From positions 1 to 61,638 of the forward strand of contig WRPE01000012.1 of assembly GCA_009773315.1 (NCBI GenBank): a DNA stretch of 61,638 bases, written 5' to 3'. The notes below the pieces were generated by a model, which saw only the letters and a list, made by a program, of their open reading frames with translations, made no database searches and was not told the DNA's origin. Position 1 is the stretch's first letter, and every line of letters begins with the position of its first letter. Below, in pieces: positions 27,861 to 32,079 of the stretch. The DNA is from Syntrophaceae bacterium (lineage in GTDB: Bacteria; Desulfobacterota; Syntrophia; Syntrophales; Smithellaceae). The translations under genes and the position numbers were made by a program.

Positions 27861-28277
27861 GTGATTATTTACGATGTGAAATGTGAGAACGGTCATAAGT
27901 TTGAAGGCTGGTTTAAAGACCGCCAGGCTTGGATTGAGCAAAACGCTCAGCGGCTGATTTGCTGTCCCGTTTGTAATAGTTCCAATGTGGAAATAGCGCC
28001 TTCTTCCATTACCATCATGGGGAAGGATGCAAAAGCGGCGGACAAGAATAATGAGAAAGATATTTCCCCGGGCAAGTCTCTTCAATGGTTGCAGCAGTTT
28101 ATTGAAAACAACTTTGAAGATGTTGGAAACAAATTTGCCGAAGTTGCGCTGAAAATACACTATGGCGATGAAGAAAAACGAAATATTAAAGGGACGACGA
28201 CGTCGCAGGAAGAAGCGAACTTAAAAGAAGAAGGTATTTCGTTTATAAAAATTCCTTTGCCCAAAATGGACAGCTGA
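27861..28277 (+). CDS. DUF1178 family zinc-ribbon protein
   Basis: This 138-aa soluble protein begins MIIYDVKCENGHKFEGWF and has a putative zinc-binding set of cysteines (Cys8 and the CCPVCNSS knuckle near 35). That is the typical DUF1178 pattern. The second half is charged and contains NKFAEVALKIHYGDEEKRNI, also conserved in the family. The function is unknown. The start is GTG with a weak GAGAG upstream. The intergenic space before it holds two small inverted repeats and the divergent tRNA-Pro promoter. Confidence 0.82.
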   Translation: MIIYDVKCENGHKFEGWFKDRQAWIEQNAQRLICCPVCNSSNVEIAPSSITIMGKDAKAADKNNEKDISPGKSLQWLQQFIENNFEDVGNKFAEVALKIHYGDEEKRNIKGTTTSQEEANLKEEGISFIKIPLPKMDS

Positions 28278-28334: not shown

Positions 28335-30683
28335 ATGGATTTATTATTGATAAACGGGCCGTATTTTATGATGAACGCTTATAAAAGTATTATTGATCGT
28401 ATCGGCAACACGCCTCTTGTTGAAATAACGAGACTCAATCCGAATAAAAAGGTGAAAATTTTTGCCAAGCTAGAGTCCGCCAATCCGGGTGGTTCCATTA
28501 AAGACCGCACGGCGCTGGTTATGGTTGAAAATGCCGAAAAAAGGGGAGATTTAAATCACAATAAGATTATTCTGGAGGCAACCAGCGGGAACACCGGCAT
28601 AGGACTGGCCATGATTGCGGCGGCCAAAGGATATAAGCTGTGTCTCACGATGTCCGAATCGGCAAGCGAAGAGCGCAAAAAAATTCTGCGGGCGATGGGC
28701 GCAGAACTGCATTTTACCCCGGCGGCGCTGGGAACCGACGGCGCCATTGAAGTTGCTTATCGGATGCTCAGAGAAAATCCCGACAAGTATTTCGGTACCG
28801 ATCAATTTAACAACGAAGACAATATTGCCGCCCACTATCTGGGAACGGCCCAGGAAATCTGGGAGCAAACCGCAGGTCAAGTAACCATGGTCGTTACCAC
28901 GCTCGGTACGACCGGCACCGCGATGGGTCTTTCCAAGAAGCTCAAGGAGTTGAGCGACCGGATTCGGATTATCGGTGTCGAACCTTATTTGCAGCATAAG
29001 ATTCAGGGGCTCAAAAATATGCGCGAATCCTACCGCCCGGGGATCTTTGATAAGAAGCGTCTCGATGAAAAAGTGAACATTCTGGATGAAGACGCTTTTG
29101 AGATGTCCCGCAGGCTTGCCCGTGAAGAAGGCATCCTGGCGGGAATGAGTTCCGGCGCGGCCATGTTTGTGGCCGCCGAGAAGGCCTGCAAAATGGACGA
29201 AGGTCTGATCGTGGTCATTTTTCCGGACAGTGGCGAGCGTTATTTAAGCACGGAGTTGTTTGCGGTCAAAGAAGAACTGGCCACGGTGAACCTTTACAAT
29301 ATTTTGAAACGTCAGAAAACACTTTTCCGGCCGCTGAAATCTGAAGAAGTGTTAATGCATACCTGCGGCCCGACGGTCCATGACGCGCCCCACCTGGGAA
29401 ATTACCGGCGTCTGGTGGTGTCTGACTTGCTGTGTCGCTATCTGACGTTCAAAGGATATCAAGTCAAACATGTTCTCGACATCGTTGATTTTACGGATAA
29501 GTCTATTCGCGGCTCGGAGAAGGCAGCGATGGATCTGTCGGATTATTCCAATAAATATTTGCAGATTTTTCTGGACGATGCGCGATATTTAAATATTCGT
29601 CCGGGCAATGTTTACGTGAAAGCTTCCGAAAATGTTGATGCCATGCTCAAGATTGTCGAGAAATTAGTCGATAAAGGCTATGCCTACGAGAAATTGCATT
29701 CTGTTTATTTCGATATTTCCAAACTGGCTGATTATGGTCTTCTCTCCAATGTCGATCTGGCAAAAACCCGATTAGGTAAATCCATTGACCTCGACGACTA
29801 TGAAAAAGACAGCCCGGCGGATTTTGCGCTCTTGAAACGGGCCGGCTTGGGGGAGTTGAAAAGAGGAATTTATCATAAGACGAAGTGGGGCAATATTCGG
29901 CCGGGCTGGCATCTGGAATGTGCGGCCATTTCCCAAAAATATCTGGGAACGGCTTACGACATTCATATCAGCGGGGCTGATGAAACTTTTCCCCATTGCG
30001 AAAATATCGTCGCGATTAACAAGGCGTTTTCCGGCCATAGCGGTGCAAATTACTGGATCGGCGCTGAACTGATCCTGGTTGATGGGCGGAAGATGTCACG
30101 CTCGCTGAATAATGCGGTAACGATCGCCCATCTGAAGCAAAATGGTTACAGCGGCAGGGATATCCGGTTTTTTCTACTGGGGATGAATTACCGCAAACCG
30201 ATCAGTTATTCCGAGAAGGCCTTGCAGATGGCGAGAAACACCATTAAAAAAATTGATACTTTCATTTACCGGCTTTATGCAATGGAGGATGATGCTCAAA
30301 ATTTTTCTGATGTCGATCAACTGATTTACGATCTTCATCATGGTTTTGAGAAGGCCTTAGACGACGATATAAATATATCCGGTGCTCTGGCGGCGCTTTT
30401 TGATTTTATTGGTAAAGTAAACGAGCCTTTGACTGAGGGAGTCATCAGCAAGTCGGATGCCCGGAAAATTGTCAAGGCCCTTGAAAAAATAAATGAAATA
30501 CTTGGCATAATGGATTTTGGACAACAAACGCTCCATCACGATATTACAGAACTTATTCAAAAAAGAGAAGCGGCCAGAAAAGCAGGGCTTTGGCAGGAAG
30601 CGGATGTTTTGAGAAATCAGTTGGCCGGGGCAGGCGTTGAGGTTTTGGATAGTCAACAGGGGACAATCTGGCGTTTTAAATAG
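28335..30683 (+). CDS. Fusion of a PLP-dependent cysteine synthase and a cysteinyl-tRNA synthetase-like domain
   Basis: This 782-aa protein joins two full enzymes. Residues about 14-315 are a fold-type II cysteine synthase: the PLP lysine Lys56 is in NPGGSIKDR, EATSGNTG binds the amino-acid substrate, TTLGTTGT binds PLP phosphate, and MSSGAA is near 271. Residues about 320-782 are a class I CysRS: Cys344 lies in HTCGPTVHD, HLGN (353-356) stands in place of HIGH, Cys529 is in GWHLECA, PHCEN is at 553-557, KMSRS at 586-590, and the C-terminal helical and end domain GTIWRF is typical. One zinc ligand position differs from canonical CysRS (PHHENE becomes PHCENI). The fusion could make cysteine and load it directly on tRNA. 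The true start may be ATG 28371 (MNAYKS), which gives the usual N-terminus; no candidate start has a good ribosome binding site. Confidence 0.9.
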   Translation: MDLLLINGPYFMMNAYKSIIDRIGNTPLVEITRLNPNKKVKIFAKLESANPGGSIKDRTALVMVENAEKRGDLNHNKIILEATSGNTGIGLAMIAAAKGYKLCLTMSESASEERKKILRAMGAELHFTPAALGTDGAIEVAYRMLRENPDKYFGTDQFNNEDNIAAHYLGTAQEIWEQTAGQVTMVVTTLGTTGTAMGLSKKLKELSDRIRIIGVEPYLQHKIQGLKNMRESYRPGIFDKKRLDEKVNILDEDAFEMSRRLAREEGILAGMSSGAAMFVAAEKACKMDEGLIVVIFPDSGERYLSTELFAVKEELATVNLYNILKRQKTLFRPLKSEEVLMHTCGPTVHDAPHLGNYRRLVVSDLLCRYLTFKGYQVKHVLDIVDFTDKSIRGSEKAAMDLSDYSNKYLQIFLDDARYLNIRPGNVYVKASENVDAMLKIVEKLVDKGYAYEKLHSVYFDISKLADYGLLSNVDLAKTRLGKSIDLDDYEKDSPADFALLKRAGLGELKRGIYHKTKWGNIRPGWHLECAAISQKYLGTAYDIHISGADETFPHCENIVAINKAFSGHSGANYWIGAELILVDGRKMSRSLNNAVTIAHLKQNGYSGRDIRFFLLGMNYRKPISYSEKALQMARNTIKKIDTFIYRLYAMEDDAQNFSDVDQLIYDLHHGFEKALDDDINISGALAALFDFIGKVNEPLTEGVISKSDARKIVKALEKINEILGIMDFGQQTLHHDITELIQKREAARKAGLWQEADVLRNQLAGAGVEVLDSQQGTIWRFK

Positions 30684-30693
30684 AAATAAATTC

Positions 30694-31515
30694 ATGGGAA
30701 AATTAAGAAAGTCTATCATAGCCGGTTCCTGGTATCCCGAAGATCCTTCCATGTTGAGGGGTGATATAACCAAATACATAAAAAATGTGCCTGATAGGGA
30801 GCTTACAGGCGATGTTGTCGGCTTAATTGTGCCTCACGCCGGTTATATGTATTCCGGCCAGGTGGCGGCACATGCCTATAAGCTGATCCAAGGTAAAAAA
30901 TATGATGCGGTTATTCTCATCGGGCCAAGTCACAGGGTTGCTTTTGGAGGTGTATCCATATACAGTCAAGGGGCTTATGAAACACCCCTGGGCGTGATCC
31001 CTGTCGATGAAAATATCGCCTGTGAAATGAAACGGCTCAGCAGCATCATGATCGAGCTCCCTGCCGCTCACGCGCAGGAACATTCCCTGGAGATTCAACT
31101 TCCCTTCTTGCAGGTTGCTCTGGGGGCTTTTCCCTTTATTCCTTTAATGATGGGGGATCAGAATGTTGCGACCTGTCGGGAACTTGCTGATGTTATTTAT
31201 CAGGTGGCTAAAGATCGCCATGTATTAATTGTCGCAAGCACTGACCTGTCTCATTTTCATGATTATAAAAAGGCAAAAGAGCTGGATGGGATTGTGCTCA
31301 GGCATATTCAAGATATCGATGCTGAAGGACTTTTAGACAGTTTGGCTCATGATAAAACCGAGGCCTGCGGCGGTGGACCAATGGCGGTGACCATGCTGGC
31401 CGCACACAAACTGGGCGCCCGTCATTCGCTGCTTCTGAAATATGCAAATTCCGGGGATGTAACGGGCGATAAAAGTTCAGTGGTGGGGTACACATCAGCC
31501 GTTTATTATCAATAA
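30694..31515 (+). CDS. amrB: AmmeMemoRadiSam system protein B (Memo family)
   Basis: This 273-aa protein belongs to the Memo family, metal-dependent dioxygenase-like folds. IIAGSWYP at the N-terminus, the metal-ligand-containing VPHAGYMYSG, IGPSHR, AQEHSLEIQLPFLQ, STDLSHFHDY and EACGGGPM are all present. In bacteria it occurs with an AMMECR1 protein and a radical SAM enzyme, and the biochemical role remains poorly defined. The ATG at 30694 is used because it precedes the family's N-terminal motif. The frame upstream is the tail of the CysRS gene. amrA follows after 15 nt. Confidence 0.92.
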   Translation: MGKLRKSIIAGSWYPEDPSMLRGDITKYIKNVPDRELTGDVVGLIVPHAGYMYSGQVAAHAYKLIQGKKYDAVILIGPSHRVAFGGVSIYSQGAYETPLGVIPVDENIACEMKRLSSIMIELPAAHAQEHSLEIQLPFLQVALGAFPFIPLMMGDQNVATCRELADVIYQVAKDRHVLIVASTDLSHFHDYKKAKELDGIVLRHIQDIDAEGLLDSLAHDKTEACGGGPMAVTMLAAHKLGARHSLLLKYANSGDVTGDKSSVVGYTSAVYYQ

Positions 31516-31530
31516 AAAACAGAGGATAAA

Positions 31531-32079
31531 ATGGAATTAACTGATCAGGAAAAAAAGACGCTTCTGGACATAGCCAAAAGGGCGATTATTGCGAAGGCCG
31601 GCAATAGAGAATTACCTAAATTAACAATTGATTTGCCGATACTTAATGAAAAAAGAGGCGCTTTTGTCACCTTAAAGAAACGGGGACACCTGCGTGGTTG
31701 CATCGGTTATATCAAGGCGGTTAAACCGCTGGGAGACACTGTGCAGGAAATGGCTGTTGCTGCGGCCTTTCATGATCCGCGTTTTCCGTCCGTCAAAGGC
31801 GAAGAAATCCGGGATTTGAGCTTTGAAATATCTGTTTTAAGCCCACTGCAAAAAATTAAAAATATTGATGAAATAGAAGTGGGCAAACATGGCTTGTATA
31901 TTGTTCGAGGTTATAATTCCGGCTTGCTCTTGCCGCAGGTGGCCACTGAATATGGCTGGGACAGGGAAAGTTTTCTAAAAGAAACCTGCTATAAAGCCGG
32001 TTTGCCGCCCAAGGCGTGGAAAGATAAAGAAACTGAAATATATATTTTCTCGGCAGACTATTTTAGCGATAAGGATTAG
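31531..32079 (+). CDS. amrA: AmmeMemoRadiSam system protein A (AMMECR1 family)
   Basis: This 182-aa protein is an AMMECR1-domain protein with the family hallmark LRGCIGYI (about residue 52), followed by AVAAAFHDPRFP and FEISVLSPL. The C-terminal LLLPQVATEYGWD is also typical. AGAGGA precedes the ATG at good spacing. It forms a pair with amrB, while the radical SAM partner usually completing the set is not in the window. Confidence 0.93.
   Translation: MELTDQEKKTLLDIAKRAIIAKAGNRELPKLTIDLPILNEKRGAFVTLKKRGHLRGCIGYIKAVKPLGDTVQEMAVAAAFHDPRFPSVKGEEIRDLSFEISVLSPLQKIKNIDEIEVGKHGLYIVRGYNSGLLLPQVATEYGWDRESFLKETCYKAGLPPKAWKDKETEIYIFSADYFSDKD

Follow-up and report, generated by a model that had tools for sequence, protein, structure and literature searches.

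A cysteine synthase fused to a cysteinyl-tRNA synthetase-like module as a putative tRNA-reading enzyme of cysteine synthesis

Amino acid synthesis is usually linked to tRNA charging via transcription control or via the free amino acid. Paralogues of aminoacyl-tRNA synthetases (aaRSs) that regulate biosynthesis, such as HisZ, which is of class II, or that sense tRNA, such as the HisRS-like domain of Gcn2, a degraded aaRS through which uncharged tRNA switches a catalytic domain, are known kinds. Here we describe a gene in which a pyridoxal phosphate (PLP)-type cysteine synthase and a cysteinyl-tRNA synthetase (CysRS)-type module share one open frame. It lies on contig WRPE01000012.1 of a Syntrophaceae bacterium (assembly GCA_009773315.1), and the whole stretch analysed, 61,638 nucleotides, is called the window below. 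We propose, with a probability of about 45%, that the fusion is a cysteine synthase able to bind tRNA-Cys, its CysRS part serving mainly as a tRNA sensor or guide. A review that tabulates duplicated synthetases lists CysRS* and MshC under CysRS (excerpt of PMC9437257). Neither this fusion nor, more generally, an aaRS paralogue that is fused to an enzyme making its own amino acid and keeps anticodon residues was found described in searches of the open-licence PMC literature, including excerpts of PMC2922099, PMC8762117, PMC5424206, PMC12684709, PMC9437257, PMC10655014 and PMC9855970.

One frame holding two full-length modules

The window frame carries a CysM-like PLP synthase first and a full-length CysRS module second, without interruption. 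All four Pfam domains exceed their cut-offs, namely PALP (residues 21-298), tRNA-synt_1e (331-634), DALR_2 (671-725) and CysS_C (733-780). Among the NCBIfam models, cysS (TIGR00435) scores 364.8 bits, above its cut-off of 340, and cysKM is passed as well with 356.8 bits (cut-off 344.15), while cysM, at 347.8 bits, stays under its cut-off of 394.2. The sequences of solved structures divide in the same manner, CysRS matching one half of the fusion and cysteine synthases the other. An AlphaFold2 model of the window fusion, built from 96 fusion sequences (alignment A1 = 96; A2 = 70), has a mean pLDDT of 90.6 and a pTM of 0.77. Its residues 317-782 superpose on E. coli CysRS in complex with tRNA-Cys (1u0b_B; Z 49.5, rmsd 3.3, 446 aligned), and its PLP half superposes on CysM of E. 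coli (2bht; Z 43.5, rmsd 1.6, 292 aligned) and of M. tuberculosis (3dki; Z 43.0, rmsd 1.5, 297 aligned). A first-pass annotation of the stretch had claimed a cysteine synthase and a CysRS-type domain, both full length, in one 782-codon frame, and Pfam, NCBIfam and the model bear this out. The start codon is uncertain, and 28347 (TTG) or 28368/28371 (ATG) may be alternatives; full-length relatives begin to align at window residues 4-19, mostly 11-18, one relative cut by a contig end aligns from 43, and residues 1-12 of the model have a pLDDT below 50.

The fusion is present over essentially its whole length in 114 of 297 sampled genomes of the window's phylum and partially in 3 more, with identities to the window fusion from 83% down to about 42%. 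The frame could have been an assembly artefact, as the first-pass annotation had allowed, or a chance frame; we reject both because the same single-frame architecture recurs across these phylum genomes and in named metagenome-assembled genomes. Its distribution beyond the phylum was assessed by a scan of GTDB species genomes with short exact patterns, which detects close relatives only and returned 77 loci, nearly all deltaproteobacterial by title and many of them Smithella or Syntrophaceae; in two loci from gammaproteobacteria, the match is confined to the PLP part. A contig labelled Candidatus Gracilibacteria holds a fusion fragment 81% identical to the window's (L104:2-922) and is probably mis-binned. 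A single stop lies within the matched stretch in each of four genomes (G030, G004, G214 and G113), and in the one-contig genome G014 the fusion is split across two frames near query residue 604 (L219:6452-9159).

Nine loci of fusion-less genomes (e.g. L209:5453-6475) carry an unfused CysM that is 50-59% identical to the PLP domain of the fusion. A two-gene precursor was sought around them, and no CysRS-like frame was found in the fetched flanks of these nine; 12 loci had been fetched, the other three (L214, L219, L220) being cut or frame-shifted fusions.

Decay of the charging site and retention of anticodon residues

The family counts below refer to 99 fusion sequences, a set drawn from the 139 complete fusion frames that the loci contain, some genes occurring twice, by dropping those at least 90% identical to a sequence already kept; three fusions cut by contig ends (L101, L102, L103) are excluded. 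For comparison, 44 unfused CysRS frames, minus the E. coli reference (L201) and the fusion fragment L104, gave 42 rows from fusion genomes that represent 37 genes, five of them present twice; two CysRS genes (L126, L187), unfused but with a long N-terminus, were set aside unaligned, and column comparisons omit six odd rows, so that 36 remain.

In E. coli numbering, the HIGH motif (H37 and G39) is present in 74 of the 99 fusions, or in 33 if its last position must be H or N, and a KMSKS-type motif in 69. Both motifs occur together in 62 fusions and neither in 18; thus, 37 lack HIGH or KMSKS yet are still fused. The zinc-binding set of E. coli CysRS (C28, C209, H234 and E238) is complete in 33/99. 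The unfused rows have HIGH in 42/42, KMSKS in 38/42 and the zinc set in 41/42; of the four rows that lack a KMSKS-type match, three have KMAKS instead and the fourth is the interrupted gene of genome G040. Some fusions, e.g. L149, combine HLGN and KMSRS with a complete zinc set; the degraded L159 has ELQE at the HIGH position, no KMSKS and T, A, H and V at the zinc positions. The model of L159 nevertheless shows the same fold (pLDDT 91.7; against 1u0b_B Z 46.0, rmsd 4.2, 439 aligned). TIGR00435 scores below its cut-off for L159 (202.6 bits) and L171 (132.1 bits), whereas the fusions of G036, G072, G088 and G145 pass this cysteine--tRNA ligase cut-off though both HIGH and KMSKS are lost, which is a warning for annotation.

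The anticodon-binding residues behave differently. R423, R427 and D436 occur together in 97 of the 99 fusions, the remaining two having R427K, and position 432 is aromatic in all 99. The five most conserved fusion columns within E. coli 405-461 are R423, R427, D436, R439 and D451 (97-99/99), and each of these is present in 18/18 of the fusions that have neither HIGH nor KMSKS. In the E. coli complex, G34 of tRNA-Cys receives hydrogen bonds from R427 and D436 and is stacked by W432, while R423 is part of the water network (excerpt of PMC12684709). Other residues are fixed specifically in the fusions, namely P346, R359, S456 and R502 (99/99) and K453 (96/99); at R359, most unfused CysRSs have S, A or G and E. 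coli has T.

On a motif-free tree, a quick one with long branches, parsimony requires no fewer than 9 changes in HIGH, 13 in KMSKS and 1 in the anticodon trio; the tree assigns one of the 13 KMSKS changes to the group of unfused KMAKS enzymes. In a quick tree of the synthetase domain, from which motif columns, L192, L199 and duplicate rows were removed, one branch with an SH-aLRT of 100 separates all the unfused rows included, together with E. coli CysS (36 rows in all), from the fusions, as expected from a single fusion event. The dN/dS of the synthetase catalytic domain is 0.05-0.27 (five pairs from two HIGH-less clades), so this domain is under constraint even there. Since fusions have outlasted repeated losses of the charging site, cysteine charging is, as judged from these motifs, not a function common to the fusion family.

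The window copy is among the better preserved fusions and might still activate cysteine. It keeps the zinc ligands C344, C529 and H554, E238 being replaced by Ile558, so that its zinc set reads C, C, H, I; C555 occupies the position of E. coli H235, the neighbour of H234. Its other changes include T68 to V and D71 to T. The residues that read G34 are present, and in the anticodon domain R744, R748, W753, D757, R760 and D772 correspond to E. coli R423, R427, W432, D436, R439 and D451 (Table 1).

In the synthase half, Lys56, the Schiff-base lysine typical of PLP fold-type II enzymes, S84-G88 (the SGNTG loop), G191, T192 and G194 are each present in 99/99 fusions. The synthase active site is thus intact across the 99 fusions, with a phosphate loop that is invariant or nearly so, and the marks of the cysteine synthase (CysK/CysM) fold, i.e. 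the PLP lysine, the SGNTG loop and the GT.GT loop, are all found. Lys227 was matched to Arg220 of M. tuberculosis CysM through equal-length alignment ranges. We considered it as proof of O-phosphoserine use and set it aside as not decisive, for E. coli CysM, an O-acetylserine enzyme, has Arg at the aligned position.

Table 1. Coordinates of the fusion gene and its features in the window
Feature	Position	Strand	Basis or remark
Whole fusion frame, 782 codons and stop	28335..30683	+	open frame
PLP cysteine synthase domain, CysM-like fold	28386..29264	+	residues 18-310; Pfam, NCBIfam, structure match
Lys56 in PGGSIKDR, Schiff-base lysine	28500..28502	+	invariant 99/99; fusion alignment
Lys227 in GLKNM, aligned to M. 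tuberculosis CysM position 220	29013..29015	+	99/99 fusions; alignment
CysRS-like class I catalytic domain	29289..30236	+	residues 319-634; Pfam, structure match
HLGN at the HIGH position, then R358-R359	29391..29402	+	residues 353-356; R358-R359 99/99 in fusions; alignment
Zinc-site stretch H554-C555-E-N-I558	29994..30008	+	alignment
KMSRS, KMSKS-type motif kept	30090..30104	+	residues 586-590; alignment
DALR_2 helical domain	30345..30509	+	Pfam
CysS_C anticodon-binding domain	30531..30674	+	Pfam

Cysteine enzymes of the carriers and the role of the fusion

The first-pass annotation had suggested a search for a second cysS and cysK, and the window's genome has both, a separate canonical CysRS (contig C46, 490 aa, 559 bits to cysS) and a separate CysK (contig C37, 320 aa, 467 bits to cysK). 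An unfused CysRS match was found in 60/60 fusion genomes tested, the gene being interrupted in G040 and the match partial in G106 (profile 1-332); we therefore reject the fusion as the sole CysRS of the cell. The sole unfused match of G040 (L192:8282-9235) is broken around KMSKS, probably through an assembly or sequencing fault, and the fusion copy of that genome has lost HIGH and KMSKS.

The supply of O-acetylserine was assessed in 99 fusion genomes, a set distinct from the 99 fusion sequences and equal in size by coincidence. They comprise 30 plus 69 of the 114 full-length carriers; the 15 omitted were mostly of lower completeness, and G120, G180 and G083 were simply left off the list. Absence means no match at E 1e-60 for cysKM or 1e-25 for cysE. 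Among the first 30 genomes, 17 have a stand-alone cysteine synthase and 13 the fusion only. The same 17 have a match to serine acetyltransferase, CysE (E <=1e-25), and two of the other 13 have weak partial matches only. The further 69 genomes have a stand-alone synthase and CysE in 30 cases, neither in 34, the synthase only in 3 and CysE only in 2. Pooled, both are found in 47 genomes, neither in 47, the synthase only in 3 and CysE only in 2 (Fisher p 5e-22, relatedness ignored). The fusion is consequently the only cysteine synthase found in 49/99 genomes, 47 of which lack a CysE match, and about half of the carriers tested have no detectable CysE. The simplest reading of this pattern is that the fusion would be independent of O-acetylserine, and the 47 of 49 sole-synthase genomes without a CysE match make O-phosphoserine a likely substrate. 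According to a reference title in the excerpt of PMC9855970, O-phosphoserine is used by M. tuberculosis CysM.

The computed pattern comprises the fusion itself, both folds, an intact synthase site, a decaying charging site, retained anticodon residues and the co-occurrence of an unfused CysRS. What the members have in common calls for a working synthase and, apparently, for reading the tRNA-Cys anticodon, and not for cysteine activation; a sensor or guide fits this best. The N-terminal PLP domain would combine sulfide with an activated serine, probably O-phosphoserine, to give cysteine, and the C-terminal CysRS paralogue would still read the GCA anticodon of tRNA-Cys. The family-wide job of the module would be to sense or hold tRNA-Cys rather than to charge it, the uncharged or charged state of the tRNA tuning the synthase; the window's own copy may additionally still activate cysteine. 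Tentatively, and with less confidence than in a sensor or guide as such, we infer the fuller picture of a tRNA-gated, CysE-independent synthase, the only one found in about half of the carriers, which would use O-phosphoserine and be switched by uncharged tRNA-Cys through a retired CysRS.

Several observations weigh against a tRNA-sensing synthase. Its binding of tRNA-Cys and its activity are predictions from a sequence pattern, and the C-terminal residues retained by the fusions could be structural, for unfused CysRS conserves them just as well, as do CysRS paralogues, for instance one that carries a glycosyltransferase domain. Outside these residues the anticodon domain evolves fast, with a column entropy of 2.14 versus 0.97 for the PLP domain across the 99 fusions; of the two HIGH-less clades, one shows a dN/dS of 0.04-0.20 for this domain and the other 0.58-0.66, and the pair L155/L174 shows 0.43. 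The 62 fusions with HIGH- and KMSKS-type motifs include the window's, and charging may persist in many. The loss of charging motifs is not tied to sole-synthase status (12 intact/11 degraded versus 8/14 in 45 genomes, p 0.37), and the gene neighbours of the fusion loci carry no regulatory hint. Finally, CysE matches exceed the curated cut-off in only 0/30 and 4/69 genomes, so that both presence and absence refer to a divergent type of CysE; many of these sub-cut-off matches adjoin a stand-alone synthase, which supports reading them as CysE.

The first-pass annotation had seen in the fusion a coupling of cysteine synthesis to charging. A link between synthesis and tRNA-Cys is still the best reading, and it is family-wide charging that falls away. 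An enzyme that passes PLP-made cysteine to the CysRS domain for charging, with loss in side lineages only, is on the whole unlikely for the family but may apply to the clade of the window's fusion. HLGN, KMSRS, C28, C209, H234, T31, W205, H224 and D229 are all retained in the window copy, and members such as L149, together with the 62 that have both motifs, point the same way; against it stand the unfused CysRS in every genome tested, the roughly 12 KMSKS changes and at least 9 HIGH changes within fusions that were nonetheless retained, and the window's own substitutions of E238, T68 and D71. If the module served the synthase only as a scaffold, whether structural or for oligomerisation, its kept fold, lost catalytic motifs and largely fast-evolving anticodon domain would fit; a scaffold, however, need not keep R423, R427, an aromatic residue at 432 and D436 in 97-99 of 99 members, and the nine unfused CysM relatives in the phylum stand without any such module, which makes this role rather improbable.

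A likeness to the archaeal tRNA-dependent route had also been suggested, and it is stronger than that annotation could tell, since no serine acetyltransferase was detected in many carriers. A further reading is a bacterial SepCysS analogue, in which the module would hold mischarged Ser- or Sep-tRNA-Cys for the PLP domain to act on the tRNA-bound amino acid; the 47 of 49 genomes above and the kept anticodon residues speak for it. SepRS is, however, above its family cut-off in 0/16 genomes tested, the synthase site resembles one for free amino acids, and SepCysS has a PLP fold different from that of the cysteine synthase domain, so chemistry on the tRNA seems very unlikely. Weak SepRS matches in 4 of the 16 genomes, all below the cut-off, were rejected, since such matches also occur in 10/14 controls including E. 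coli and were read as other synthetases. Hardly more can be said for an MshC-like ligase, in which the CysRS part would activate cysteine and join it to a small amine to give a thiol cofactor. The model does match MshC (3c8z; Z 43.9, rmsd 2.0, 373 aligned), but MshC is not known to have an anticodon domain, the alignment ends at model residue 727, and the fusions keep residues of precisely that domain; adenylation motifs are moreover gone in many fusions, and the MshC model TIGR03447 gives the window fusion 179.1 bits against a cut-off of 485.1. That MshC is itself a CysRS paralogue (excerpt of PMC9437257) speaks for the comparison. The suggestion of a cysteine persulfide producer found no support, and we regard it as highly improbable. 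CysRS is reported to make persulfide via the lysines of KIIK and KMSK (excerpt of PMC10655014), and at these positions the window has K, R, K and R; K73 and K76 occur together in 19/99 fusions, a weak test as they do so in only 8/42 unfused rows, and K269 is R in 70/99.

Genomic surroundings and comparison with known systems

In the window, a DUF1178 gene (27861-28274) lies upstream of the fusion and Memo and AMMECR1 genes (30637-32076) lie downstream. The DUF1178 cluster precedes the fusion in 40/99 loci, and no neighbour cluster is common to more than 40 of the 99, some loci being short contigs. At gathering scores, Rfam finds six tRNAs and the end of a group II intron in the window (RF00029, 28-99 at the left edge, 44.9 bits) and no T-box or riboswitch. 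In a search for a second tRNA-Cys with two patterns, the first found none and the second found one tRNA-Cys (GCA; U73 by eye) and one non-tRNA, and others are possible.

Two further kinds of CysRS paralogue were seen among the loci. L186:5963-8188 encodes another CysRS fusion with a C-terminal glycosyltransferase family 2 domain (Pfam), and its nearest tree relative, L198:7345-9531, has a similar frame length; both have HxGN and KMAKS and keep the anticodon residues. L199:6327-7595 is a 423-aa CysRS-like frame without an anticodon domain that resembles CysRS* of Desulfobacterales, in a genome (G134) where the fusion and a normal CysRS occur as well; with ARAGORN, no tRNA was detected in that stretch.

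The fusion joins a biosynthetic enzyme and its own apparent tRNA reader in one chain, in more than one third of the sampled phylum genomes. It could explain how cysteine is made in many Thermodesulfobacteriota without a detectable serine acetyltransferase. If our reading is true, the control of an amino acid pathway's rate by a tRNA could be tested directly here, and the fusion would be at once a protein-level counterpart of the T-box and, in bacteria, a parallel to the Sep-tRNA route of archaea.

Among described systems, Gcn2 likewise has a degraded aaRS-type tRNA sensor attached to a catalytic domain, as we propose for the fusion, but it is a eukaryotic kinase that responds to many tRNAs and not a biosynthetic enzyme. 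The PLP domain shares its fold and active site with the O-phosphoserine sulfhydrylase CysM of M. tuberculosis (3dki), which is unfused, and the fusions have an invariant Lys at CysM position 220. The CysRS half shares the full-length fold and anticodon residues of E. coli CysRS (1u0b), whereas the fusion has a synthase attached and its zinc and ATP motifs are eroded in many members. SepRS/SepCysS also ties the making of cysteine to tRNA-Cys, though with unrelated enzymes. CysRS* of Desulfobacterales is a CysRS paralogue of the same phylum, but it has no anticodon domain and charges a SelC-like tRNA (excerpt of PMC9437257). In HisZ-HisG, an aaRS paralogue without adenylation is attached to an enzyme making the same amino acid, in the manner proposed here (same excerpt); HisZ, however, is a separate subunit of the ATP-phosphoribosyltransferase that mediates inhibition by histidine, whereas the CysRS module is covalently joined, of class I and keeps its anticodon residues.

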